Assembly (NCBI GenBank): GCA_013332095.1
Contig: JABENI010000003.1
Coordinates: 1-46,670, forward strand
Source of the DNA: Candidatus Bathyoplasma sp. NZ
Lineage (GTDB): Bacteria > Bacillota_I > Bacilli_A > MAG-NZ
Length of the DNA stretch: 46,670 bases
Direction of reading: 5' to 3'
The position numbers and the translations under genes were made by a program. The notes beneath the pieces are model-generated. The model was not told where the DNA came from, did no database searches, and saw only the letters and a program-made list of their open reading frames with translations. How positions within the stretch are numbered: the stretch's first letter is position 1; each line of letters begins with the position of its first letter. Positions 729-12,651 of the stretch are shown in pieces.

Positions 729-3071
729 TTAACTATTAATTCTTTCAGTAATCGTCGTATCCTTAGATATCTTATTATAATTCAATATTATAATAAATCT
801 ATTTATCAAATAAATAAAAACCATCATAACCATATGAGTTACTCCAAAAATAATCATCCAATTATTATTAAAAGTAATCTCTGTTTTTACAAAAGTTAAT
901 CCAATAAACACTAATAAAATTGATAAAATAAAACTAAAAATCAAATAATAGTGTGACTCTTTTATCAATATTGATATTATTCTTTTTTTAGAACAACCAA
1001 TAGCTTCAAGTGTCGCGAGTTCTTTATTTCTTGAAATACAGTTTGAAACTTGAGTACTAATAATATTAAGCAATGAATTCACAAATAAAAGTATCGATCC
1101 TAAAATACCAAAACTTATCAGAAATACTCTAAAGTTCTCCATGACCTTCTTAAAAGACTCATACGATAGAATATCTAATTCATCGTCACTTGAAAGTTGC
1201 TTCTCTAGATCACTAAGTAATAGTTTATCCTCACTCATTATACCTATCATGTTTATATATTTATCGCCAAAATTCTCTACGAAGAACGCTGATGAAAAAT
1301 TAAAGACACCCAAATTTTGATCATAATTAATATCTCTGCTATCTCTATCAGTTATTATTGTATCAACTGGAACAGAAATTTTCTTTGATACCTCTCCCAC
1401 TTCGATAGTTAATTCTATATTATCACCAACTTTTATGCTATCTTGCACTTCATTGGAGCGATAATACATTAATCCAGAATCAGAATAACCTTTTCCTGCG
1501 ACTTCATATTTATTTGATATATATTTAAAATAGTTTTCTCCTATACCAGCAGTAGTTGTGTAATACTCACCGACATCATACTTTACTATTTTCATTACAT
1601 CACTATTATCAATAAAAATATCTTTGTCAACTTTGACTAGCATGAATGTTTGTATTCCTGAGTCAGTATCTATATATAGCAAATGATTATTCTCAAATAT
1701 TATATCATCTGTCAAACTCAAAATTTCAGGCTCGTTTATCGGTACAGTATCCATGTTATTTGAACTACGCTGCCCTTTTAATCGAAGATCATAAATATTA
1801 TTTGCTTTTGCATGCTTACCTGGATCTATTGACATCGTTGTTACTAACACCGTCACCAACAACGATAAGGTGATGGTAAGCGAAAAAATAATACTTCTAT
1901 ATTTTTTTTTATTCATTTTTATAGATCTAGCTGAATACCTATTTTCAATCAACTTATTTTCATCATTTTTTAGTTTAAGCGGTTTTTTAGATGTAAACTT
2001 TCTTTCAATATTAACCGTTAATGTCAAAAAGTATATCAAATAAATTATGAGCAGTGAAATCACCACTAGTTTGTAATTAATGTCAATACTCGTCATAGAT
2101 GAAAACGCTGTAAACGATAAAATAATAGGCATAGAATATTTATATATCAGTATTGCTAATAAAGTACCGACAATTATTGGAATTATGAATATTAGTAAAC
2201 TGTAAATCAAATTTATAAAAACTATATTTAAGCCATTCAAACCTATAAATTTAAATTTACTACTTTCTTTCCTATCCAAATTTGAATAAATATTATTAAT
2301 ATTTCTTATGACTGCAAATATAACAAGTGATAGAAATAACATAACAACAAATAGATACTTATTAACATTGATGCCTTCATTTGGATTGCGCACAAACTCA
2401 ACATCAAAATCGGCAGAAATATCTGCTATTTCCTGAATATCAAAATTTTCATCATATATATAATAATGCGTAGTCGTATTTTTATTATTTTCACTAAAAT
2501 CAGAACTCACTATTAAGTCTCTAAAATTAGCATTACCATTGAGTACTTCATATATTCCAACAACCTTGAATTCTTTATTATTCTTAGTATCATTTATAGA
2601 TAATTCTATTTCGATATTTTCATTTAGCAGTTCTTTAAAGTCCATCGGCAAAACAATTTCATTACTATTTTGTGGTAAGATACCTGCATACATTTTAATT
2701 GCTGATTGCTTCAGGTAGTCAGCATTTATTGAAATAAATGTATTCCTATCTTTATCAAATCTTTTATCAATAACAACTACATCATTGTGTTCTTTTTTGA
2801 CAGCAATTTCATACCGCTTTTTGCTATGTAACTCATTATACAAGTTCTTATTATCACCATCAAATGTAAAATAACCATTCGCTTTTATACCCGAACTTGT
2901 GATGAATTGAAAATCATGTACCCCATTTATAAATGTTTTTGCTATTGACCCATACCCTACTAACAAAATTACTGCAACCACTAATGCAAGTGTATTAATA
3001 ATTGTTCTGGATTTTTTTCTAGTTATTCTACGATAACATATGGTTAAGATTGCCTTAAATTTATTTCTCAT
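729..3071 (-). CDS. FtsX/MacB-type ABC transporter permease
   Basis: Membrane permease of ~780 residues. I chose ATG 3071 (MRNKFKAIL), overlapping the upstream ATPase stop by 11 bp with AGGATGG about 10 nt upstream; an ATG at 3083 is also possible. Layout is a duplicated FtsX plan: one N-terminal membrane helix (~res 20-45), a large extracytoplasmic domain (to ~240), four helices (~243-405), a second extracytoplasmic domain (~425-645), and three C-terminal helices (~650-760). Such permeases work with a MacB-like ATPase to expel or respond to antimicrobial peptides, or export bacteriocins (as in lactococcin-972-type clusters). Substrate cannot be read from sequence. Unlike its exporter neighbours it is intact. 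Confidence 0.85.
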   Translation of the reverse strand: MRNKFKAILTICYRRITRKKSRTIINTLALVVAVILLVGYGSIAKTFINGVHDFQFITSSGIKANGYFTFDGDNKNLYNELHSKKRYEIAVKKEHNDVVVIDKRFDKDRNTFISINADYLKQSAIKMYAGILPQNSNEIVLPMDFKELLNENIEIELSINDTKNNKEFKVVGIYEVLNGNANFRDLIVSSDFSENNKNTTTHYYIYDENFDIQEIADISADFDVEFVRNPNEGINVNKYLFVVMLFLSLVIFAVIRNINNIYSNLDRKESSKFKFIGLNGLNIVFINLIYSLLIFIIPIIVGTLLAILIYKYSMPIILSFTAFSSMTSIDINYKLVVISLLIIYLIYFLTLTVNIERKFTSKKPLKLKNDENKLIENRYSARSIKMNKKKYRSIIFSLTITLSLLVTVLVTTMSIDPGKHAKANNIYDLRLKGQRSSNNMDTVPINEPEILSLTDDIIFENNHLLYIDTDSGIQTFMLVKVDKDIFIDNSDVMKIVKYDVGEYYTTTAGIGENYFKYISNKYEVAGKGYSDSGLMYYRSNEVQDSIKVGDNIELTIEVGEVSKKISVPVDTIITDRDSRDINYDQNLGVFNFSSAFFVENFGDKYINMIGIMSEDKLLLSDLEKQLSSDDELDILSYESFKKVMENFRVFLISFGILGSILLFVNSLLNIISTQVSNCISRNKELATLEAIGCSKKRIISILIKESHYYLIFSFILSILLVFIGLTFVKTEITFNNNWMIIFGVTHMVMMVFIYLINRFIIILNYNKISKDTTITERINS

Positions 3072-3723: not shown

Positions 3724-4187
3724 TATTTTCTCCTCCTATTTTGTAACTCTCGTATTTTGCTTCTAAATCATTGTTAAAAAAATGAGAAATTATAATAATT
3801 ATTTTATTATGTTTAATTTCTTCAATGTATTCATATACTCTTTTTAACGAATTTAAGTCTAAATCTGCCTCTAATTCATCAATAATTATTACATCTTTAG
3901 ACTAAGTAAAATGGTAAAAAGTTCCAATTTCTTTCTTCCTATAGCATTGTAACATTTATTATTACCTAATGCAAAAAACCTGCTACTGATATTAGTGGTA
4001 TCTTTATCATACGTTCAAGCAAGTATATTAATTTATCTTTTTTTACCTTTTCTAGCAATTTCTCAGCAACTAAATTATCATAAAAATGATTATTCTGCAT
4101 GTAGTATGATCCGAGTAATATAATCTTTAGAAACAAGATGTTTGATATCATGACTATCCATAAATATTGAATTGTGTTCAGCATTCA
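3600..4187. repeat. Right copy of ~0.58-kb tandem-duplication repeat (partner 1-582)
   Basis: Direct repeat of 1-582. It differs by a CAG-to-TAG nonsense change near 3903, a 2-bp deletion near 4110 and replacement of the segment holding the ABC signature by a 95-bp patch (3946-4040). Confidence 0.9.
3946..4040. repeat. 95-bp patch, copy A (partner 4710-4804)
   Basis: Near-identical direct copy of 4710-4804 (offset 764 bp), differing at a handful of bases. It sits inside the ATPase half of the decayed exporter and replaces the stretch that carries LSGGE in copy 1. Its left join shares the string TTTATCTTT with the sequence it replaced. Confidence 0.9.
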
Positions 4188-4709
4188 ACTCACGTGTAAG
4201 GAGTTGCAATAAAGTCGTTTTCCCAGCACCATTTGCAACACTTATAATATAGATATTTCCTTTACTAAATTTATAATTTTCGTAAGTCATAGGAATAGAT
4301 TCATCATATTTATAATTTAATTCTTTTATTTCCATTGATGAAATTGAGGCGATTTTAATATGTCCATCTATCTGTTCAAAATTCAAAAATTCATTTGTCT
4401 TTTTGAATGATAATTTCACAAAAACTAACTGTGTTATTATATTTGGAAGAGCACTAAACAAAGATAATAATTTATTTAATACATCATCAAGATTACAAAA
4501 TCATCAAATTCAACACTATTTAGTCCACTAACAAATACCAAAATCAAAACTAACGTTGTTAATATTGATATGAGATTAGAACTCAAAATACTATAGTTTA
4601 ATAAACTTACTATATGAAGTCTCTGATGAAGAATTTTATTGTTTGCTTCACCCATTTTCCTCTCAGCATCATCATTCAAATTGTTTAAAGAAATATAAAT
4701 CCTATTTGA

Positions 4710-4804
4710 ATTGTAACATTTATTATTACCTGATGCAAACACCCTGCTACTGATATTAGTGGTATCTTTATCATACGTTCAAGCAAGTATATCAATTTAT
4801 CTTT
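4710..4804. repeat. 95-bp patch, copy B (source position in exporter membrane domain)
   Basis: Direct repeat of 3946-4040. This copy is in its natural place, encoding on the minus strand part of the exporter membrane domain (frame ...DKDTTNISSRVFASGNN...), so it is the likely donor. Confidence 0.85.
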
Positions 4805-4894: not shown

Positions 4895-5199
4895 ATACCA
4901 GTTATTCTTTCTTATTAACAATCATCTTTGGGTGAGTCTTTGTTTTACTCTGCCTTAATATTTATTTCATAATATTTCACCTTAAACATGACTACAGTTA
5001 ATTAACAGAGTATAGTATATTACTAGGGATATCGGATTCTGCATAAATATCTAGAATAGGTAATTCTTTTAAAATTAAATAAAAATCAATTTCAATACAC
5101 AAAAAAATCTCCTAAAATAAAGTGAAATTTTTTTAAGTATTAACTTTTTCTAGCTTGTATAAAAAAAATAACCTTTCGGTCATTTATCATATTATTTAA
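4895..5199. repeat. Left flanking repeat of accessory island (partner 12110-12477)
   Basis: 5086-5199 matches 12357-12477 closely (about 80% by eye, gapped); 4895-5080 matches 12110-12300 more weakly. The partner is the terminator region just downstream of tRNA-Gln. Similarity ends at TTATTTA, immediately before the position where the tRNA 3' end lies in the right copy; no tRNA is present here. The repeats enclose the six-gene operon and the pseudogene region. Confidence 0.75.
5160..5184 (-). terminator. Orphan copy of tRNA-operon terminator
   Basis: On the minus strand, TGACC-GAAA-GGTTA followed by eight T: a short stem with GNRA-type loop and U-tract, the same as at 12440-12463. A second, decayed copy of the other tRNA terminator lies at ~5106-5130. 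There is no tRNA upstream; the nearest gene reading toward it is the nucleotidyltransferase ending at 5624, so it may now terminate the defence-like operon. Confidence 0.6.
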
Positions 5200-5386
5200 A
5201 GATATTCTGATAATTATCTGTACACATTATAAGATCAATAATATGCACAAGCAATGTTTTGAGTTTGAAAAAAATAGGAAAATAAAACCTATTTACTAAG
5301 ATGTTTCAGCAAACTCTTATATCTTCCTTATTCTATACTAAATGTTCTTATAGACTTGCTAACTTTCAATTCAAAATAGTGTACAC

Positions 5387-5426
5387 ATTAATTTCAAGTC
5401 GAGCAATTGCTCGACTTGAAATTAAT
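5387..5426. repeat. Perfect 40-bp palindrome
   Basis: Left arm 5387-5406 (begins ATTAATTTCAAGTCGAG) and right arm 5407-5426 are exact reverse complements with no spacer. It lies ~200 bp beyond the last gene of the six-gene operon. The short palindrome GTGTACAC (5379-5386) abuts it. No T-tract follows on either strand, so it is not a standard terminator. Confidence 0.95.
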
Positions 5427-5623: not shown

Positions 5624-5923
5624 TTAAATGACTTTATCGTATGTAATTCCTTTAAAAATATTATTTGATTTATTATTAAATTCAGTTGTATTTAAGCAAA
5701 TAAAATCAATCGGAATATTTGTGACCTCGTTAATTTCATAAATTATACAACTTTTTAGTGATTGTAAGTTTTTATAAGAAAAAAAATTGGCATCATACAC
5801 AATCATAATATCAATGTCATTATATCTGGGACTATTAACAATTGAACCAAGCAAATAAAAATCTACAAGAAAAATCTTACTTTTTCTTTTTAAAAGGCCA
5901 TAAACAATATTTTTTATGCTCAA
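5624..5923 (-). CDS. Minimal nucleotidyltransferase (MNT/Pol-beta fold), TTG start
   Basis: 99 residues. The family core is visible: GS at 26-27 (YLLGSIVNS) followed by NDIDIMIVYD with Asp 36 and Asp 38, the metal-binding pair of the Pol-beta/MNT superfamily. The start is TTG 5923, supported by a perfect GGAGGTG nine bases upstream; that site lies inside the preceding gene, which it overlaps by 47 bp, indicating translational coupling. MNT proteins transfer nucleotides to protein or small targets and are often antitoxins with HEPN partners; no HEPN-type gene is visible here. It is the last gene of the operon. Its role beside an HNH protein and a 132-aa unknown is open. Confidence 0.8.
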   Translation of the reverse strand: MSIKNIVYGLLKRKSKIFLVDFYLLGSIVNSPRYNDIDIMIVYDANFFSYKNLQSLKSCIIYEINEVTNIPIDFICLNTTEFNNKSNNIFKGITYDKVI

Positions 5924-6275
5924 TATTCAGTGCACCTCCAAATTCCGGTATGGTAAACAAGCCTAGCTCATTAGTTCTGGCTAAACTTTTAGCCTCTTCA
6001 GTATATGAATTCCACATAGAGGCGCATATAATGGTATCAATATTCCTATCATTGCTTAAAATTTCTTGTATATCTGAGACTGAAATAATATATATATTTG
6101 TTAGCCACAGAGTTCTATTTTTTAATCCATACGAATTTTTAATATCAACATCGTATTTTTGCGGGGATAATATATTATTTTTTACAATTTTATCGTGATC
6201 ATCGAGAAATTTCTTGAAAAATTCAATACTTTCCTTTCTTGGAACTTTTTCAAATTTTGGATTTCCATCTGGCAT
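5877..6275 (-). CDS. Uncharacterised 132-aa protein between HNH nuclease and nucleotidyltransferase
   Basis: Family not recognised. The start ATG 6275 has TAGGAGGAAATTAAA directly upstream and follows the HNH gene stop by 1 bp. Mixed alpha/beta composition; the central part (about 55-105) has hydrophobic strands and the run DTIICASMWNSYTEEAKSLA followed by LGLFTIPEFGGALN, which resembles the second half of a small Rossmann or restriction-endonuclease-like fold, but I see no certain catalytic set. The tail WPFKKKK is basic. No membrane segment. The intimate spacing with the HNH gene (1 bp) and the embedded start of the nucleotidyltransferase suggest the three products act together. It could be a nuclease partner or specificity factor. 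Confidence 0.75.
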   Translation of the reverse strand: MPDGNPKFEKVPRKESIEFFKKFLDDHDKIVKNNILSPQKYDVDIKNSYGLKNRTLWLTNIYIISVSDIQEILSNDRNIDTIICASMWNSYTEEAKSLARTNELGLFTIPEFGGALNIEHKKYCLWPFKKKK

Positions 6276-6276
6276 T

Positions 6277-6957
6277 TTAATTTCCTCCTAAAATATTTTC
6301 AAATTCTTTTGGAAAGAGTGGTGCATATGGATCTAACGATTTTGAAATTTTATTAGCAATTAGACCATTTGCATGAAGTTTAAATTTTGCAAGAAGCATA
6401 ATCTCATCATTTTTCAAAAGTGTAATATTTGCGTCAAGCAGTAATATTATTTGATTGTTATTTGGAATTATTGTGTTAATACATTTTTCATCCCATTTTT
6501 CTTTTTTTCTTGTAAATATATCTAAATTCCCAGAGGATGCAGGTCCATAATTTTGAAAAATAACTTTGTTTTCATAAATATAGTTTTCGAATCTCTTGCG
6601 TAATTTATCTCTTGACTCAAAAATAGGAATATCAAATTTTTTTAATAAGTTATTTTTAACATTATTTTTCCAACTCAATAATTTCTCCACATTAAATTCT
6701 CTAGTATTTTGATCAATCATTTTATGGCAACTTCCGCACAAAAGCAGTACATTTTGCGGTTCATCTAAGTCATTTCTCAAATTATTTGCTCTTGGTCCAT
6801 TTAAAGCTTTTGAGTTAATATGCGCAAATTCTCCAACGAAAATTTCCATCTTATCTTCAGAAAACGATTTTAGCAAATATTGTTTACATTCTGGATTCAT
6901 ACACAGCCCAAATCCTTGTGTAATGATTACTCTTTTATTAATCTCAGTAATTGCCAT
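6277..6957 (-). CDS. HNH endonuclease-domain protein with C-terminal unknown domain
   Basis: 226 residues. The N-terminal HNH domain has zinc cysteines C19 and C24, the catalytic-type His 46 (FAHI), Asn 69 (NVLLLC) and C74-x2-C77-H78, the layout seen in HNH domains of CBASS Cap5-like and restriction proteins. Residues ~115-226 form a second domain (VIFQNYGPASSG... IIPNNNQIILLLDAN...) that I do not recognise and that may be sensory or target-binding; it is not a visible SAVED domain. The start has GAGGAGGAAGT 1 nt upstream of ATG. It lies 63 bp after the ATPase gene and 1 bp before the 132-aa gene. Expected to cut nucleic acid; the trigger is unknown. Confidence 0.82.
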   Translation of the reverse strand: MAITEINKRVIITQGFGLCMNPECKQYLLKSFSEDKMEIFVGEFAHINSKALNGPRANNLRNDLDEPQNVLLLCGSCHKMIDQNTREFNVEKLLSWKNNVKNNLLKKFDIPIFESRDKLRKRFENYIYENKVIFQNYGPASSGNLDIFTRKKEKWDEKCINTIIPNNNQIILLLDANITLLKNDEIMLLAKFKLHANGLIANKISKSLDPYAPLFPKEFENILGGN

Positions 6958-7020
6958 ACTTCCTCCTCATAAAAATGTTTTAATTTTCCAAAATAAATTT
7001 TTATAAAATTATAAAGCAAT

Positions 7021-9054
7021 TTAATTATTATTACAAAATTGCATGTACTTTTTAAACACTTTATTGTCTTGAATAGTTACAAAATTCAAACTCTCCTTCT
7101 TATTAAGTTTTTTATCTACAATCACCTTTTTTAATTCTGAAATCGCCGCACGGTTTTCCAGTGTAGAAAAAACAATTGATTGCATATTCATACCACCTAA
7201 AACCTCTAACATTTTAATTATGTCATTTATATTCACTTCATGTTGCTTCGGCTCATCAAAAATAGTAACAGGAATTTTAAAACCACCGATTTTCAATAAA
7301 CTAATTACGTAAGACCAAATACTCCTAATATTATCGCTTGCTGACGCGGAAACCTTTACTTTGTAACCCTTTGTTTTTGGAATGTAATTATCTTTGTCTA
7401 TTATAACGTCGTTTAATCCTGTACTTCTATAATTGAACATTCTTAAATATGAAACAAATGAATTGCTAAAATCACTTATTTTTATCAAATCGCTTGGTGT
7501 GTGATATGATTTTGGCAATGAGCCAAAATCATTTTCTAACTGTGTTTTTCTTTCGCTATATTTTGACATATCCAGAAAATATTTCTCTAGCTCATCTTTT
7601 AAAGAAATGTATTTTATTAAATCTATTTTATAAATAACTAATCTATCTAATTTGGTTCTTAACTTTTTAATATCACCATAATTAAAATCACCTATTAAAC
7701 TTTTTATTCTTTTTCTATTTGTGTTAATATATTCTTTAATAGCGTTACTTCTAGTTTCAAATCCACCTAACTCTTTATCAATTTTATTTAATCTGAATTC
7801 TAATAACTTCTTTTGTGAAGATAGAAAATTTTTACTTTGTTCTAATGTCATAATATTGCCTTTAACATCATTATATTCATTTATTTTCTGTTCACAGGTG
7901 GGACAAGTGTTTCTAAATAAAACTATATCCATATTTGACCCTAATGTTTGAACTTTGTATAAATCTTTTAAATTTTTAAATTCCTTGATTAGAGAATTAA
8001 TCATAGTTTCAATTAATTTTCTCTCTCCTTTGCACGCAATTAGTTTTGAATATATTATTTCTTGATCCAGTTCCGACTCCAAAACATCTTCTTTTAAACT
8101 CTCAATTTCCTCAATAATGTCATTTGCAATTGTATCTGAATAATTCAATTGTTCTGATTCTATTTTAGAGATATTGTCGGAAATTCTTTTTATTTTCTTC
8201 TCTATCTCAAACTCATTTCCAACATTATCAATTATTTGTAAGTCTGGTACTCCGAAATTAATTTTTAGTTTTTTAGGTGCATTTTTAAAAGACAAATTCA
8301 ACTTGCTTAAACTTAAAAGCATACTTTCTATCTTTGATTCCCATTTCTCTTTTAAAATTTTTGTCTCTGAAAGCAAACGATCTCTTGTCATTTCAGTTTC
8401 AAAAGTGTCAAGCCCCAATAAAAATTCAAAGCCCTTTTTTCGAACATCCTTAATACCAAAATTCCTTGGTGCATTCTCAAACATACCATTCCACCCACTG
8501 ATTTGTTCAATAAATATTCCAGAAAATATTATTTGAAGATATAGTTTTGATATTTTTCCAGAAAAAGTGAAAACATCTGGAATTTCTACATTTATAAATT
8601 TTACGAAATAGGTATGAAAACCCCGTTCATTTTGTGCACTTCCGGACGAGTGAAGATAGTAATCGCTTGATTTACATTTCGTTATATTTTCTAGAGATGA
8701 TTCATAAACCATCACGAGTGAATCAGAAAATTCACTAGATTTAGCGTACCTTAATAATGTAATGATTTCGCTACCATTTGTAATTTCCAACATTATTTTA
8801 CTATATGCTACATCAAATTCTTCATCATTATCATTTATTGCGGTATGGAAGCATGGCTTCAATGATTTGTGTCCTGTATCAGACCCTAACAGTTGTTCTA
8901 AACCTAAAGAATATAGTATTGAGCTGAAAAGTGATGATTTTCCTGAAGAGTTCAAACCAACAATAATATTTAAATTTGAATAAAAGTAAATTTTTCTTCC
9001 GAAAACTCCTGTTTTTGTATAGATATCTACCTTCAATTTATTAATTTTCAACAT
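7021..9054 (-). CDS. Rad50/SMC-like ABC ATPase of an ABC-3C-type system
   Basis: 677 residues. Walker A GLNSSGKSS (33-41); a family-specific segment LYLQIIFSGIFIEQISGWNG (171-190) acts as the Q-loop region; coiled coils ~285-370 and ~395-515 flank a zinc hook CPTC (384-387); a signature-like SASASDNIRSIWSYVISLL (569-587) and Walker B VTIFDEP (596-602) close the ATP site. This is the architecture of DNA-end or DNA-loop binding Rad50-type ATPases, but much shorter. It starts 8 bp after the middle-component gene. In ABC-3C systems such an ATPase senses foreign DNA and licenses an effector; the assignment rests on gene order and architecture, not on a search. Cytoplasmic. Confidence 0.85.
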   Translation of the reverse strand: MLKINKLKVDIYTKTGVFGRKIYFYSNLNIIVGLNSSGKSSLFSSILYSLGLEQLLGSDTGHKSLKPCFHTAINDNDEEFDVAYSKIMLEITNGSEIITLLRYAKSSEFSDSLVMVYESSLENITKCKSSDYYLHSSGSAQNERGFHTYFVKFINVEIPDVFTFSGKISKLYLQIIFSGIFIEQISGWNGMFENAPRNFGIKDVRKKGFEFLLGLDTFETEMTRDRLLSETKILKEKWESKIESMLLSLSKLNLSFKNAPKKLKINFGVPDLQIIDNVGNEFEIEKKIKRISDNISKIESEQLNYSDTIANDIIEEIESLKEDVLESELDQEIIYSKLIACKGERKLIETMINSLIKEFKNLKDLYKVQTLGSNMDIVLFRNTCPTCEQKINEYNDVKGNIMTLEQSKNFLSSQKKLLEFRLNKIDKELGGFETRSNAIKEYINTNRKRIKSLIGDFNYGDIKKLRTKLDRLVIYKIDLIKYISLKDELEKYFLDMSKYSERKTQLENDFGSLPKSYHTPSDLIKISDFSNSFVSYLRMFNYRSTGLNDVIIDKDNYIPKTKGYKVKVSASASDNIRSIWSYVISLLKIGGFKIPVTIFDEPKQHEVNINDIIKMLEVLGGMNMQSIVFSTLENRAAISELKKVIVDKKLNKKESLNFVTIQDNKVFKKYMQFCNNN

Positions 9055-9062
9055 AAAAACAC

Positions 9063-9491
9063 CTACTTAATTTTTTTTACTAATGCTTCTGTAAACCTTT
9101 TTTTAATTGTATCAAAGAATAATTTCTCATCTATGAATAAGTCATCATCTTCAATTATTTTTAATATGAATTCATTTCCTAAATCGGTTATTATAAATTG
9201 AGACTTATCAAAAATTATCAGTCTTGATGATAGTAAAATTTTTAGTACTTTGTAAATTGTGTCATCATTTGTAAATGTGAATTTGTTGGAATTATCACCT
9301 ATGAACTTATAAAACTGATCCCACAAGATTTTATTCCTTATAACTCCATACATAATCATTAATCTTTCTAAAGAACTTTTATTCTTTATACTAGAGAGTT
9401 TTAAAAATAATAATATTACGACAATTTTATAATTCATTTTAGAAACTACGGGCAAATAATACGGTTTTCTTTTAAATGTCACTTTATTCAT
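9063..9491 (-). CDS. ABC-3C-like middle component (small winged-helix-type protein)
   Basis: 142 residues, no signal or membrane helix: the hydrophobic run near 20-33 (KMNYKIVVILLFLKLS) fits a buried helix. The pattern, helical with a C-terminal LSSRLIIFDKSQFIITDLGNEF stretch like a winged-helix wing, and the length match the 'middle component' proteins between effector and ATPase in ABC-3C loci. Its ATG overlaps the effector stop by 8 bp (ATGAATAA), so translation is coupled, and its stop is 8 bp from the ATPase start. It probably bridges effector and ATPase. The assignment is contextual; sequence alone would leave it hypothetical. Confidence 0.7.
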   Translation of the reverse strand: MNKVTFKRKPYYLPVVSKMNYKIVVILLFLKLSSIKNKSSLERLMIMYGVIRNKILWDQFYKFIGDNSNKFTFTNDDTIYKVLKILLSSRLIIFDKSQFIITDLGNEFILKIIEDDDLFIDEKLFFDTIKKRFTEALVKKIK

Positions 9492-10407
9492 TGCATACTA
9501 CTATATTAAAATCGAGCGGGCATTCAGCCAACCAACTCGAAATCAATCCATTAGATAATTCTCTGATGAGTTTTGGATTAAATGATTTTGAGAAAGTATT
9601 TTGAAGATCTTTTAAAATTTCTTTGTGAGTATTGTGTAAAAATACGTCATAATTGTCATTATTCAAACCTGAACCTTCTTCGACTAAATCTTCATTTGAA
9701 TTTTTTAATTCACAATATTCATTATATAAATTTGGATACTCTAGATTTAATTGGTTTAAAGTCAAGATTCCTTTCACATAATAATCTATATACTTCTCTG
9801 TAAATTCTTTGATTAGTTTTTCTGAGTGCAAAACTTTACTGAATTTTCTATAAATATTTTTTACCATCTCGTTATTATTCTTTATTTCATCAAATTTCTC
9901 ATCTGAAATTTCTACATTTAATAAATTTATTTTTTCTTGCGACATCTTATTAATACTTTGCAATTCTGGTGCAACAAAATTAATGTCTTTCAAAATCACT
10001 TCAAAATCATTTGATAATATGTCCAAATTTTTCAGCCGATATTCGGTTTGCTTTTTTGTTGCATACTCAAAAGTTTTTTTATTATTAATACAAGGAGTTA
10101 TCAATATCCACTTCGATATCTTTTGATCTCCCATCAAATTTTTTATTCCGGCCTCATATAACACTAGTTTGTTCAAATCTCCACGTATTTTTCCCCTCAA
10201 GCGTTCGTGCATGTCATTAGGGGTGTATTCAATTTCAGGACAGTAACATTGAAACACTTCTGCATTTGAAATTCCATCTATACCATAATCTCCTTTGTTA
10301 TTTGCTGGAATAGATTTAAAAGAGGTTTTATATTTTTTGTTTAGGCACTTTGAAACTTCTTCTTCCCAATTTCCACTAGTAAAATTACCATATTCGGTTT
10401 TTATCAT
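9484..10407 (-). CDS. Restriction-endonuclease-like effector with C-terminal ABC-3C-type domain
   Basis: 307 residues. The N-terminal ~140 residues resemble a PD-(D/E)XK-type nuclease: NWEEEVSKCL (helix with conserved Glu), GDYGIDGI (Asp 40/Asp 44), then strand EVFQCYCPE, followed by a helix and strands (KWILITPC). The canonical catalytic Lys after the Glu/Gln is not evident, so activity is uncertain. The C-terminal ~150 residues are helical and would be the CTD that docks to the ATPase/middle component in ABC-3C systems. First gene of the operon; its start ATG 10407 is preceded by GGGGGGGAG. It could be a targeting subunit if the nuclease site is dead. Confidence 0.75.
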   Translation of the reverse strand: MIKTEYGNFTSGNWEEEVSKCLNKKYKTSFKSIPANNKGDYGIDGISNAEVFQCYCPEIEYTPNDMHERLRGKIRGDLNKLVLYEAGIKNLMGDQKISKWILITPCINNKKTFEYATKKQTEYRLKNLDILSNDFEVILKDINFVAPELQSINKMSQEKINLLNVEISDEKFDEIKNNNEMVKNIYRKFSKVLHSEKLIKEFTEKYIDYYVKGILTLNQLNLEYPNLYNEYCELKNSNEDLVEEGSGLNNDNYDVFLHNTHKEILKDLQNTFSKSFNPKLIRELSNGLISSWLAECPLDFNIVVCNE

Positions 10408-10445: not shown

Positions 10446-10474
10446 ATTATAATAGTAAAGAATTATTTTGAAAA
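10446..10474 (-). promoter_or_regulatory. Likely promoter of the six-gene operon
   Basis: On the minus strand, TTTTCA (10474-10469), a 17-bp spacer and TATAAT (10451-10446), ~40 bp before the effector start. The -10 is perfect and the -35 matches 4 of 6. Confidence 0.5.
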
Positions 10475-10539
10475 TAATTTATTATAGTTGTAATTTATAT
10501 TAATAAATACAAAACCATTTAGACTTAAGAAAGTGAAAT

Positions 10540-11210
10540 ATTTTTTCTTTTACTTCAAATATTATTTTTTTCTTAATTAATTTTCTTGGAACCGCTACTT
10601 TAAATTTAGAGATACTTTTTCCTTTTACATTAAAAATATTGATTCCACTGAATTCATTCTTTGTAGAACATTACCAGACTAATTAGTCTCTTTTGCGAAT
10701 TCATTATCGCTTTTAATAATCAATCATATGTGGATGGGATATATGCTCATTTTACCAAAATTAATATTAGGTTCCAAATCTCTCTATCAGCAAATATTCC
10801 AACAGCATATTCAGTAATCTCATCTTCTAAAGCCTATCTATTTTTTACTATATTTTTACTTCTTGACAAATTTATTTTATTTGAATCATAAAACAAAATT
10901 GGATGAAAATTCTCTTTATCTTTTAAAATTATAAATAAATCAAAAAGTAGTTCTGTATCAATATCTCTTGTTTTTTTATCTACACAAATCCTAGATTTTT
11001 TTTTACAATGTGATACAATTACAGATGATGGACTCGTTGCATTATCCCCTAATCCATTTAAATAATAAATATATCTTTTAAAGAAAGTTTACTGAATTTT
11101 TCATCATAATACTTCGAAAATGAAATTAAATTTGAATTTCCATCAAATTTAAAACTATATGATATATTTTTCCATTAATCTTACAATCCCATTCGTAACC
11201 AAGTAGATAA
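10540..11210 (-). pseudogene. Decayed gene of unknown family
   Basis: Minus-strand frames joined across at least three shifts and a TAG stop give protein-like sequence from ~11210: GYEWDCKINGKIYH..., FDGNSNLISFSKYYDEKFSK..., YYLNGLGDNATSPSSVIVSH..., then FHPILFYDSNKINLSRS..., and EITEYAVGIFADREIW.... The longest uninterrupted stretch is ~90 residues (about 11070 to 10845). I do not recognise the family. With the hsdS-like remnant next to it, it may be another part of a lost restriction or defence locus. Confidence 0.5.
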
Positions 11211-11229
11211 TTCTACTCAATTAACTACA

Positions 11230-11694
11230 CAAAATGAAGTACTTTATTTGTTCAATTAAATTAATCTTATTGTGATTTGATAGAATGTTAATTTAACATC
11301 ATTAATTAATATTTTCGTAACAAAATTCTTATACGATAAATTTTCTATTGTTTTCTCTTTAAGAATTCTATAATATCTCATTTGTAGTATAAGCATAATG
11401 TATTCCGTTTCTAAAAATAGGTACAATAGCGACATTTACTACGCTACCTTATATGAGTTATATAACATCACCATTTAAAGAAAACCCCTTTTGCAAATTA
11501 TCAACTAAATTTTAGTTATAAATTTACAATTTATTATGTCAACATTATTATTTTTAATATCACTTGCCATTATAAAAGGGATTCCATTATCTACAATTTT
11601 TTTTGTAGGGTGTATATTTCCATAGTTTCCATCTTTTGGAGGGAGTATTATTTTCCTTAAACCTCAACTCTGGTACTAATTTATCTTCTCTCAC
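11230..11694 (-). pseudogene. Decayed type I restriction specificity (HsdS-like) gene
   Basis: From a GTG at 11694 (GGGGGTG upstream) the reading is VREDKLVPELRFKENNTP, like HsdS N-termini. After a frameshift it continues PKDGNYGNIHPTKK, then DNGIPFIMASDIKNNNVD, the typical target-recognition-domain pattern, ending at TAG. Another frame gives KGFSLNGDVIKL and GSVVNVAIVPIFRNGIHYAY, which resemble the following 'kGDv / iG...' part of HsdS domains. Multiple stops and shifts make it non-functional, and only about the first target-recognition domain is left. No hsdM or hsdR is in the window. Confidence 0.65.
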
Positions 11695-11699
11695 CCTTA

Positions 11700-12110
11700 C
11701 ACCCCCTTTATGTATTTAGTAGCAATAACTTTAATGCTAACCTTATACCAACAAAAACATTACAATATTTTTTAAAAAAACTACATAAAATATCGTAATT
11801 TTACAAATAAACTGTTATTTTTAACCTTATTATAACAATTTTATTGAATCAACTCAAGTCTTTTAATAAATAATATTAAAAATTATCAGATTTTATCAGG
11901 CTGGAACACTACCAATAATCTATTCACAAATGTAGCAAATTAATTTTTGTGTTTTTTAGCATTTAACAAGGTAATAACAAAGAATTTTATAATTAAGAAT
12001 TTAAATTTTTTTCCCGCCACAGTTCAAATGATTATCGCAGGCAATACAAGAGCCAAAAAATATTTTTACTTTAAATTGCCATAGGGTTAATAACCAATTA
12101 AAAAGCAGTC
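11700..12110. other. AT-rich gene-free stretch
   Basis: No open frame of coding character on either strand and no tRNA or clear hairpin family. It lies between the hsdS-like remnant and the right island repeat. Confidence 0.6.
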
Positions 12111-12378
12111 AACACTAGTTATTTTTTCTTATTCATAATCATTTCCAGACGAACTTTGGTCTCTCTATGCCTTCATATTTTGTTTCGCAAAATTTATCTT
12201 GAAAACCGATAACAACTGTATAAATGAGCAATATAGTATATTACGAATGATATCTGTACCTGCAGGTAGGTATAAAATGGGATAGGTTAATTTTTTTAAA
12301 ATTATTTCAAATCCAGCTTATTGAATTACGATTAATATTAAATCCTTTTACAATTAAACAAAAATCAATCTCAACATA

Positions 12379-12408
12379 AAAAAAATCTCACAAAATAAAG
12401 TGAGATTA
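12379..12408 (-). terminator. Second intrinsic terminator of tRNA operon
   Basis: Minus strand: AATCTCAC, 8-nt loop, GTGAGATT, then a run of T (12386-12379). Perfect 8-bp stem. Confidence 0.8.
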
Positions 12409-12439
12409 TCTTAAGTATTCTCTTTTTCTAAACTTGTAT

Positions 12440-12463
12440 AAAAAAAATAACCTTTCGGTCATC
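12440..12463 (-). terminator. First intrinsic terminator of tRNA operon
   Basis: Minus strand: TGACC-GAAA-GGTTA followed by seven to eight T, 16 nt after the CCA end of tRNA-Gln. Short stem capped by a stable GAAA tetraloop; an identical copy is at 5160-5184. Confidence 0.7.
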
Positions 12464-12478
12464 TATCATGTTATTTAA

Positions 12479-12553
12479 TGGTAGGGCTAGAAGGATTCGA
12501 ACCTTCGATCACGGAGTCAAAGTCCATTGCCTTAACCACTTGGCCATAGCCCT
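12479..12553 (-). tRNA. tRNA-Gln (anticodon TTG)
   Basis: 75 nt including an encoded CCA. The acceptor stem AGGGCTA pairs with TAGCCCT; D-loop GGCCAAGTGGTTAAGGC; anticodon loop CTTTGAC gives TTG (reads CAA/CAG); T-loop GGTTCGAATCC. It lies 14 bp after tRNA-Tyr on the same strand. It is the only glutamine tRNA seen here, and its 3' flank carries the island junction. Confidence 0.97.
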
Positions 12554-12567
12554 CTGTAAAAATAAAA

Positions 12568-12651
12568 TGGTGGAGGGAGACGGATTCGAACCGCCGAACC
12601 GTAAGGAACTGAGTTACAGTCAGTCGCGTTTGGCCACTTCGCTACCCCTCC
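12568..12651 (-). tRNA. tRNA-Tyr (anticodon GTA)
   Basis: 84 nt including an encoded CCA, with the long variable arm expected of bacterial tRNA-Tyr. The acceptor GGAGGGG pairs with TCCCTCC (one G-U); anticodon loop CTGTAAC gives GTA; T-loop GGTTCGAATCC. First gene of the two-tRNA operon. Confidence 0.97.

Follow-up and report, generated by a model that had tools for sequence, protein, structure and literature searches.

Do six minus-strand genes that lie almost end to end form one defence system or two? The question is raised by a locus in a 46,670-nucleotide stretch of contig JABENI010000003.1 of Candidatus Bathyoplasma sp. NZ (hereafter the window), in which the six genes follow one another with an 8-bp overlap, an 8-bp gap, a 63-bp gap, a 1-bp gap and a 47-bp overlap, just as the first-pass annotation of the sequence had described. 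That annotation took the first three genes for a conflict system of the ABC-3C type and the last three, encoding an HNH nuclease, a protein of no recognized kind (here called X) and a minimal nucleotidyltransferase (NTase), for an extension of it into a larger system. Matches to known families in Pfam and PADLOC were obtained for five of the six proteins, and genes 4–6 recur together in distant bacteria, so the six-gene observation is more than chance. The analysis described below indicates that the region almost certainly contains two separate systems, a Lamassu system, of a kind known for phage defence, and an HNH–X–NTase module (hereafter the trio) for which no name was found.

The first-pass annotation had proposed a search of gene neighbourhoods for the trio with and without the three genes preceding it, and in such a search the trio by itself co-occurred strongly. 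The genome sample comprised the best 80 of 212 relatives of the HNH protein found by an HNH-alignment scan of GTDB genomes, the weaker relatives lying outside the 80. Downstream of HNH, hidden Markov models detected X in 78 of the 80 loci and the NTase in as many, with 77 loci having both, and two further loci were complete by eye (L021 for the NTase and L022 for X). The median junction was -4 bp at both gene boundaries (75 and 72 loci, with starts picked by script). The 80 loci belong to 11 named phyla, with 55 loci in Pseudomonadota, 12 in Actinomycetota, 3 in Bacteroidota, 2 in Verrucomicrobiota, one in each of seven others and one unassigned; the phyla represented by a single locus are less sure, because many of the loci come from metagenome bins.

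Essentially the same arrangement was observed on plasmids and in viral contigs. Plasmid searches with the HNH protein and with X found both side by side in distant bacteria, and all eight plasmid loci that were opened (7 of the 19 records with an HNH match, and one reached through X) carried HNH, then X, then a small NTase. Of the 12 remaining records, four matched with the same coverage and identity as the opened ones, and eight (H12–H19) matched the HNH domain only. The plasmid gene table, which is incomplete by its own account, holds no full-length NTase for three of the eight loci (L004, L006 and L010), and the NTase of L005 (Acinetobacter) ends at 70 residues. Among the viral contigs, 15 relatives of the HNH protein were found, eight full-length and seven with the HNH domain only. 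Both partners accompanied seven of the eight full-length proteins, the eighth lying at a contig end, whereas neither partner accompanied any of the seven HNH-domain-only proteins (0/7). This difference ties the trio to HNH proteins with this particular C-terminal domain, rather than to HNH nucleases generally. A search of the viral contigs with the single window HNH sequence gave no match, and no DNA match to a Klebsiella copy of the trio was found in E. coli genomes. In the window's own class (395 genomes), which includes small, mycoplasma-like genomes, there were six HNH matches, three of them full-length, including that of the window's genome, and three HNH-domain-only.

Lamassu was then sought around the trio by running six query proteins over the fetched flanks of 88 loci (8 plasmid and 80 genome). 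Detectable Lamassu was present in the flanks of five of the 88 loci and directly upstream of the trio in none. Of the 80 genome loci, 15 had less than 3 kb of upstream flank and 17 less than 3 kb of downstream flank, and divergent kinds of Lamassu, or systems farther away, may have escaped detection. Four of the five systems (those of L010, L045, L047 and L062) lie on the opposite strand, 1.2–1.4 kb downstream of the trio, and the fifth, in L029, has the orientation of the trio and lies 1.8 kb downstream of it. The four opposite-strand loci are all from Sphingomonadales, and this recurrent trio–Lamassu neighbourhood may reflect the spread of a single island. By a crude gene caller, a co-directional gene ended no more than 60 bp upstream of HNH in only 4 of 74 loci, so that the trio normally stands alone; on the other side, 8 of 76 loci had such a gene starting no more than 60 bp beyond the NTase end of the trio.

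The proposed extension of genes 1–3 by genes 4–6 is therefore not supported by these 88 other loci. The six-gene arrangement was seen in none of them, the outcome that the first-pass annotation had itself named as speaking against a single six-gene system, and this candidate was rejected, since the trio recurs alone and, in the flanks covered by the six query proteins, without Lamassu detected directly upstream. Overall, the trio is a widespread, conserved and near-obligate unit that occurs without detectable Lamassu. No name for genes 4–6 was found in the literature or in family libraries, in agreement with the first-pass annotation: the trio was unnamed in the four family libraries scanned, including Pfam and PADLOC-DB v2 (2023), and no description of it was found in open-licence PMC full texts, a scope that lies apart from subscription papers, most preprints, supplementary tables and the current DefenseFinder models.

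The reading of genes 1–3 as an effector, a middle component and a zinc-hook ABC ATPase was borne out by PADLOC matches for all three proteins (Table 1). The ABC-3C assignment also held, since the passages of PMC10586767 on classification put "ABC-3C" inside the Lamassu superfamily; the guess was thus right, and the system already had a name. LmuA, LmuC and LmuB are all present and adjacent. A motif scan of LmuB located a Walker A sequence, GLNSSGKS, at residue 33 and the zinc-hook-like CPTC at residue 384, and the Walker B sequence IFDEP lies at residue 598; many LmuB proteins carry a zinc-hook motif CPxC, according to the same passages. Judged from sequence, genes 1–3 are an apparently intact Lamassu in the order lmuA-lmuC-lmuB, ordinary apart from its neighbours. 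The account of Lamassu in those parts of PMC10586767 does not mention a downstream HNH–X–NTase trio. A search of 392 genomes of the window's phylum for LmuB gave, at E <= 1e-20, no match outside the genome to which the window belongs.

The three proteins of the trio were compared in alignments A4 (45 X sequences), A5 (68 HNH) and A6 (49 NTase), each a subset of the available sequences. Pfam agreed with the earlier identification of gene 4 as an HNH nuclease and of gene 6 as a minimal nucleotidyltransferase. In the AlphaFold2 (AF2) model of the HNH protein (predicted local distance difference test score, pLDDT, 90.8), a Cap5-like HNH domain at residues 1–111 is followed by a C-terminal helical bundle at residues 112–226. 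Residues 1–111 superposed on the HNH domain of Cap5 with a Z of 15.3 and 3.1 A over 108 residues (VIA-align), and the next structural relatives were type IV enzymes, EcoKMcrA (Z 8.3), ScoMcrA (Z 7.4) and TagI (Z 6.2). Of the HNH triad, H46 and N69 were kept in all 68 sequences and H78 in 67. Of the zinc cysteines, C19, C24 and C74 were kept in all 68, and the position of C77, a cysteine in the window, was Cys in 58 and His in 10. On this pattern of residues, the HNH protein has those of an intact active site. The bundle has conserved residues of its own, W155, P165, N166, N177 and H195, and showed no convincing Pfam or PADLOC match among the members scanned. The HEPN family PF01934 gave no Pfam match in the six proteins, a result that a helical bundle could produce by escaping a profile, and no HEPN protein was noticed in the Foldseek or VIA-align lists for the bundle, an absence that proves little.

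Protein X had no Pfam family in 45 members, and a PDB sequence search with it returned a single chance-level row (E 0.025). Its AF2 model (pLDDT 90) has the element order alpha-beta-beta-beta-alpha-beta-alpha-beta-alpha, and its best VIA-align matches were mostly restriction-endonuclease-like: Can2 (Z 7.2), AF1548 (7.0) and an archaeal NucS-type enzyme (6.9), with RPB5-type subunits, LlaBIII, FokI and MspJI in lower rows and unrelated folds at Z 4–5. The restriction-endonuclease-like proteins in this list share one fold. No conserved catalytic D...(D/E)xK was found in X, and there was no invariant acidic or Lys column among the 45 sequences. The only invariant residue in the 45-row alignment was Tyr62, and a Tyr was present in 97 of 97 X sequences, namely those of 77 called genome loci, the window, eight plasmid and seven viral loci, L072, L022 and two fusions. 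By the strand order of the model, Tyr62 would fall at the expected Lys of (D/E)xK.

X occurs in two forms. It is about 130 residues long in 27 of the 77 called genome loci and in the window, and about 212 residues long in the other 50 of the 77. In a profile comparison, the N-terminal half of the long form matched its C-terminal half with a probability of 98% and an E of 5.6e-14 over 100 columns (hhalign), so that the long form is a tandem duplication and the extra half is not a separate domain, as had also been considered. The aligned position in the N-terminal repeats was Tyr in 13 of 45 (48 examined, filters off). On the HNH tree (78 rows, 77 of them labelled), the difference between short and long X required one change (Shimodaira–Hasegawa approximate likelihood-ratio support 96), against a mean of 22.6 after shuffling. 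In addition, two natural HNH–X fusions from the window's class (L093 and L094) have one frame of 404 and 419 residues, followed by the NTase, and the X part of these fusions is weak but consistent (E ~1e-6 in a four-sequence search with filters off; hhalign probability 92%). X and HNH can thus be one polypeptide.

The pairwise distances of the three proteins also changed together, as shown by correlations of 0.92 for HNH–NTase, 0.96 for HNH–X and 0.91 for X–NTase, with permutation maxima of about 0.2, in a Mantel test on the 72 rows, window included, in which all three proteins were called. The NTase of the window has the motif GS-x8-DxD and a third carboxylate, D73. GS, DxD and Glu81 were invariant in the 49 aligned sequences (GS and DxD in 49/49), and the third carboxylate was Asp in 34, His in 13 and Asn in 2, the non-Asp residues being scattered over short and long types. 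In PADLOC the NTase matched PDC-S09 only (E 6.6e-5).

The immediate surroundings of the trio were surveyed through its first neighbours, of which 72 of 74 upstream and 74 of 76 downstream were scanned, leaving out three of more than 1000 residues and the upstream one of L048; no control set was used. Among the first 25 of 33 and 25 of 69 families, those of these neighbours included Gabija, PARIS, Druantia, Lamassu, PD-Lambda-1 and others. Gabija adjoins L042 and a PARIS-like AriAB adjoins L021, and in the plasmid records Shedu lies next to L007 and DRT3 next to L006. The presence of Lamassu, Gabija, PARIS-like, Druantia, PD-Lambda-1, Shedu and DRT3 genes nearby fits a life of the trio in defence islands.

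The explanation that we prefer, and regard as reasonably probable as a whole, is a Lamassu system beside an independent trio with HNH as the effector, X as the adaptor and the NTase as the switch. Its parts differ in strength. The HNH protein is likely the effector of the trio; the trio is likely a defence or conflict module, and its role is probably anti-phage. In the proposed mechanism, the HNH protein would be a DNA-cutting effector, the C-terminal helical bundle of which docks X. X, having no conserved catalytic triad, would act as an adaptor or as a sensor or restraint, as a single domain here and as a tandem duplicate in the "long" lineage. The NTase would switch the module on or off through nucleotide transfer to one of its partners, and invasion by phage or plasmid DNA would lift the restraint, so that HNH degrades DNA. 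That the NTase acts on a protein partner is plausible, if a little short of probable.

The best candidate acceptor of the nucleotide would be Tyr62 of X, perhaps by AMPylation. In the passages of PMC7641770 on the HepT/MntA pair, MntA silences the nuclease toxin HepT by AMPylating its Tyr104, and an acceptor site would be expected to appear as an invariant Tyr in an otherwise diverse partner; Tyr62 is a candidate on these grounds, and we regard the assignment, which is one of analogy, as rather doubtful. Taken to its full extent, the proposal would describe a three-component immune system of at least 11 phyla, in which X would be a catalytically dead adaptor of restriction-endonuclease-like fold and the cutting of DNA by HNH would depend on nucleotidylation of the invariant Tyr of X by the NTase, the adaptor having been duplicated once to a pseudo-dimer with the Tyr kept in the C-terminal half and mostly lost in the other. 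In this complete form it is a speculative and, on balance, unlikely scheme.

Several observations weigh against the preferred explanation. For the fold of X, all matches had a Z below 8, under the level at which VIA-align is trusted, and Foldseek gave no match at E <= 0.001, its list also containing metallo-beta-lactamases and integrases. Tyr62, at the place where that Lys would be expected, may be part of an active site that has degenerated or may have a structural role. For the NTase, catalysis may be lost or altered where the third carboxylate is His or Asn, and, of 74 sequences, 66 have a loop of 7–9 residues between GS and DxD and only two have the 10-residue loop of MntA (six were off-pattern). 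Co-divergence of the three proteins is partly expected, because their hosts share ancestry. The window HNH is itself divergent, with at most 33% identity over 222 columns and an end branch of 2.53, and its position in the tree is unsure. The defence-gene neighbours are a tally without a matched control, from which no island-enrichment figure follows. Finally, some loci are incomplete: HNH is broken beside intact partners in L072 and L085; in L023, HNH is followed by an X of only 102 residues before a stop, and the 255 bases left on the contig contain no NTase; and in L008 (Rhizobium) the NTase is in two pieces beside an HNH and an X that look intact, which is hard to square with an essential antitoxin.

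Of the other explanations, the one that survives best is a restriction-type system, in which HNH would cut DNA recognized by X in unmodified or modified form and the NTase would modify or process DNA or tRNA rather than a protein. It is a real rival, because McrA-type enzymes rank next after Cap5 when the HNH domain is compared by structure, and the predicted nuclease-type fold of X suits it as well. No methyltransferase or known modification-reader domain was matched in the three window proteins, however, and X is without the catalytic acidic/Lys pattern, and we consider the restriction-type explanation unlikely.

The trio might instead serve as a toxin–antitoxin system or stabilize plasmids, without any role against phages; HNH would then be the toxin, and X and the NTase the antitoxins. 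A small NTase, MntA, is a known antitoxin in the part of PMC7641770 cited above, and the modules are found on plasmids, some of them near integrases or transposases. They are, however, also found in genome contigs (in which plasmid and chromosome are not distinguished), often beside defence genes, and three near-obligate genes together with a helical adaptor domain exceed a simple toxin–antitoxin pair. The toxin–antitoxin explanation, which is compatible with a function in defence, appears improbable.

Signalling of the CBASS type, in which a messenger made by the NTase would activate the Cap5-like HNH through its C-terminal domain or through X, would account for the close resemblance of the HNH domain to that of Cap5 and for the nearly constant presence of the NTase gene. 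The NTase has only about 100 residues, however, and matched PDC-S09 alone in PADLOC, and the C-terminal domain of the HNH protein is predicted to be all-helical, which does not resemble the CARF-like SAVED domain. Because a CD-NTase match and a SAVED domain are both lacking, a messenger of this type is less likely, and we regard such signalling as quite improbable. The single six-gene system of the first-pass annotation, with HNH, X and NTase as accessory parts of the window Lamassu, is very improbable, since its supports, the tight same-strand packing across a 63-bp gap with no terminator listed between and the nearby Lamassu of 5/88 other loci, are opposed by the 0/88 loci with Lamassu detected directly upstream by six query proteins in flanks of limited length, by the opposite strand of four of the five nearby systems and the downstream place of that in L029, and by the completeness of the trio without detected Lamassu in nearly all the remaining loci.

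Shine-Dalgarno-like sequences were read by eye 5' of the HNH gene and of X, and a GGAGG was read 11 nt upstream of the TTG start of the NTase. The statement that all six genes lie behind one promoter was not confirmed: between positions 3000 and 13000, promoter-like matches numbered 83, against 72.4 (standard deviation 10.4) in shuffled sequences. A promoter belonging to genes 4–6 is possible, because one 10-of-12 site straddles the boundary between lmuB and the 63-bp gap (Table 1). No minus-strand terminator-like sites were listed between the six genes, and the two adjacent same-strand systems are perhaps co-transcribed.

Table 1. Positions in the window of the features of the Lamassu system, the trio and the flanking repeats.
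Feature	Position	Strand	Basis
lmuA, Lamassu effector, 307 aa	9484..10407	-	PADLOC LmuA PDLC03852, E 4.3e-21, residues 9-293
lmuC, Lamassu middle component, 142 aa	9063..9491	-	PADLOC LmuC PDLC03871, E 6.9e-11
lmuB, Rad50/SMC-like ABC ATPase, 677 aa	7021..9054	-	PADLOC LmuB PDLC03863, E 3.4e-74, residues 1-643
Zinc-hook-like CPTC of LmuB, residues 384-387	7894..7905	-	Motif scan
Candidate promoter of the trio, overlapping the lmuB end and the lmuB/HNH gap	7008..7036	-	10-of-12 consensus match, of near-chance frequency
HNH nuclease gene of the trio, 226 aa	6277..6957	-	Pfam HNH_2, E 1.5e-5; Cap5 HNH match; AF2
Protein X, 132 aa, predicted restriction-endonuclease-like fold	5877..6275	-	AF2 pLDDT 90.0; VIA-align
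Codon of Tyr62 of X	6090..6092	-	Sole invariant residue of the 45-row X alignment
Minimal nucleotidyltransferase (NTase), 99 aa, TTG start	5624..5923	-	Pfam NTP_transf_2, E 7.7e-6
Direct repeat, right copy, reaching the 3' end of tRNA-Gln	12334..12483		81-87% to 5055-5204
Direct repeat, left copy	5055..5204		Pair with 12334-12483, spacing 7278-7279

The setting of the two systems was reported to include tRNA genes and the remains of restriction genes. The tRNA neighbours are real (tRNA-Gln and tRNA-Tyr at 12479–12651). The restriction-gene remains correspond to pieces resembling a type I specificity subunit (hsdS-like), with stops, at about 10470–11715, an identity recognized by eye only. A pair of imperfect direct repeats brackets both systems and these hsdS-like remnants, and parts of the repeat region (query 12040–12478) have further copies on three other contigs, C8, C36 and C39, of the genome, whose assembly comprises 1.82 Mb in 44 contigs, the window being part of contig C7. 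A repeat at tRNA-Gln that brackets both systems suggests a possible tRNA-side island. Two further observations concern the sequence beyond the NTase gene. A perfect 40-bp palindrome, consisting of two 20-nt arms with no loop, lies about 200 bp downstream of that gene (5387–5426) and is possibly a terminator or a recombination site. Fragments of an ABC-transporter ATPase gene at 326–595 and 3946–4804 are apparently duplicated, decayed copies, as shown by 95 bp at 96% between 3946–4040 and 4710–4804 and by similar peptides at 326–595 and 4090–4461.

The reading of the locus is thus corrected to a known system beside an unnamed one; the boundary drawn by the first-pass annotation was wrong, and the object that it singled out is real. 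If the preferred explanation is true, a conserved trio of 11 named phyla, plasmids and viral contigs is missing from PADLOC-DB v2 (2023), with X and the C-terminal bundle of HNH as two parts without a convincing Pfam or PADLOC match among the members scanned, and the trio would add to the cases in which a nuclease is under the control of a very small nucleotidyltransferase, here with a specific candidate residue.

Among known systems, the closest comparison for genes 1–3 is Lamassu/ABC-3C, with which they share the components, the A-C-B order, the Walker A motif and the zinc-hook-like CPTC, and from which no essential difference was seen. Among the five aligned LmuA sequences, those of L010 and L029 have Gln-Cys-Lys at a position where those of the window, L045 (7518–8438) and L047 (12885–13805) have Gln-Cys-Tyr; in these last three a Tyr stands in place of the usual nuclease-motif Lys, and the same may hold in X.

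For the HNH protein, the best PDB sequence match was 9om4 ("HNH endonuclease", 435 aa), which ranked ahead of Cap5 with an E of 2.1e-31 and was limited to the first 133 residues of 9om4. The best or near-best PADLOC match of its N-terminal domain was PDC-M68A, which stops at residue ~104–113 (4–104 of 226 in the window), and X had no PADLOC match in the five sequences scanned. Genes 4–6 were accordingly not assigned to PDC-M68, given the partial PDC-M68A match and the absence of PDC-M68B among the six proteins. PDC-M68B appeared twice among the families listed for the first downstream neighbours (candidates include L073 and L081), and it was not recovered in a scan of ten. Protein X would, by its model, share the element order alpha-beta3-alpha-beta-alpha-beta with the restriction-endonuclease-like (PD-(D/E)XK) proteins Can2, NucS/EndoMS, RPB5, MspJI and FokI, whereas it differs from them in its single invariant Tyr, its lack of a conserved catalytic motif and its low Z (<8).

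With the CBASS pair Cap5 (HNH-SAVED) and CdnG, the trio shares the HNH domain, the zinc cysteines and an NTase in the operon, whereas it has a much smaller NTase and the extra protein X, and no SAVED domain was found. CD-NTases are far larger than ~100 residues. The PADLOC SAVED-HNH model matches end at about residue 100 of the HNH protein, and the domain that follows is predicted to be all-helical; Cap5, in contrast, senses its messenger with a CARF-like SAVED domain, as stated in the passages of PMC8568899 on that protein. Membership of genes 4–6 in CBASS was rejected for want of a CD-NTase match and a SAVED domain. Membership in HepT/MntA was rejected as well, since the window NTase has GS-x8-DxD rather than GSX10DXD and no HEPN match was obtained with Pfam, a profile search that could miss the helical bundle; the trio differs further in its HNH nuclease and its third component, X. 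What the trio has in common with HepT/MntA is a minimal nucleotidyltransferase beside a nuclease and an invariant tyrosine in the partner.

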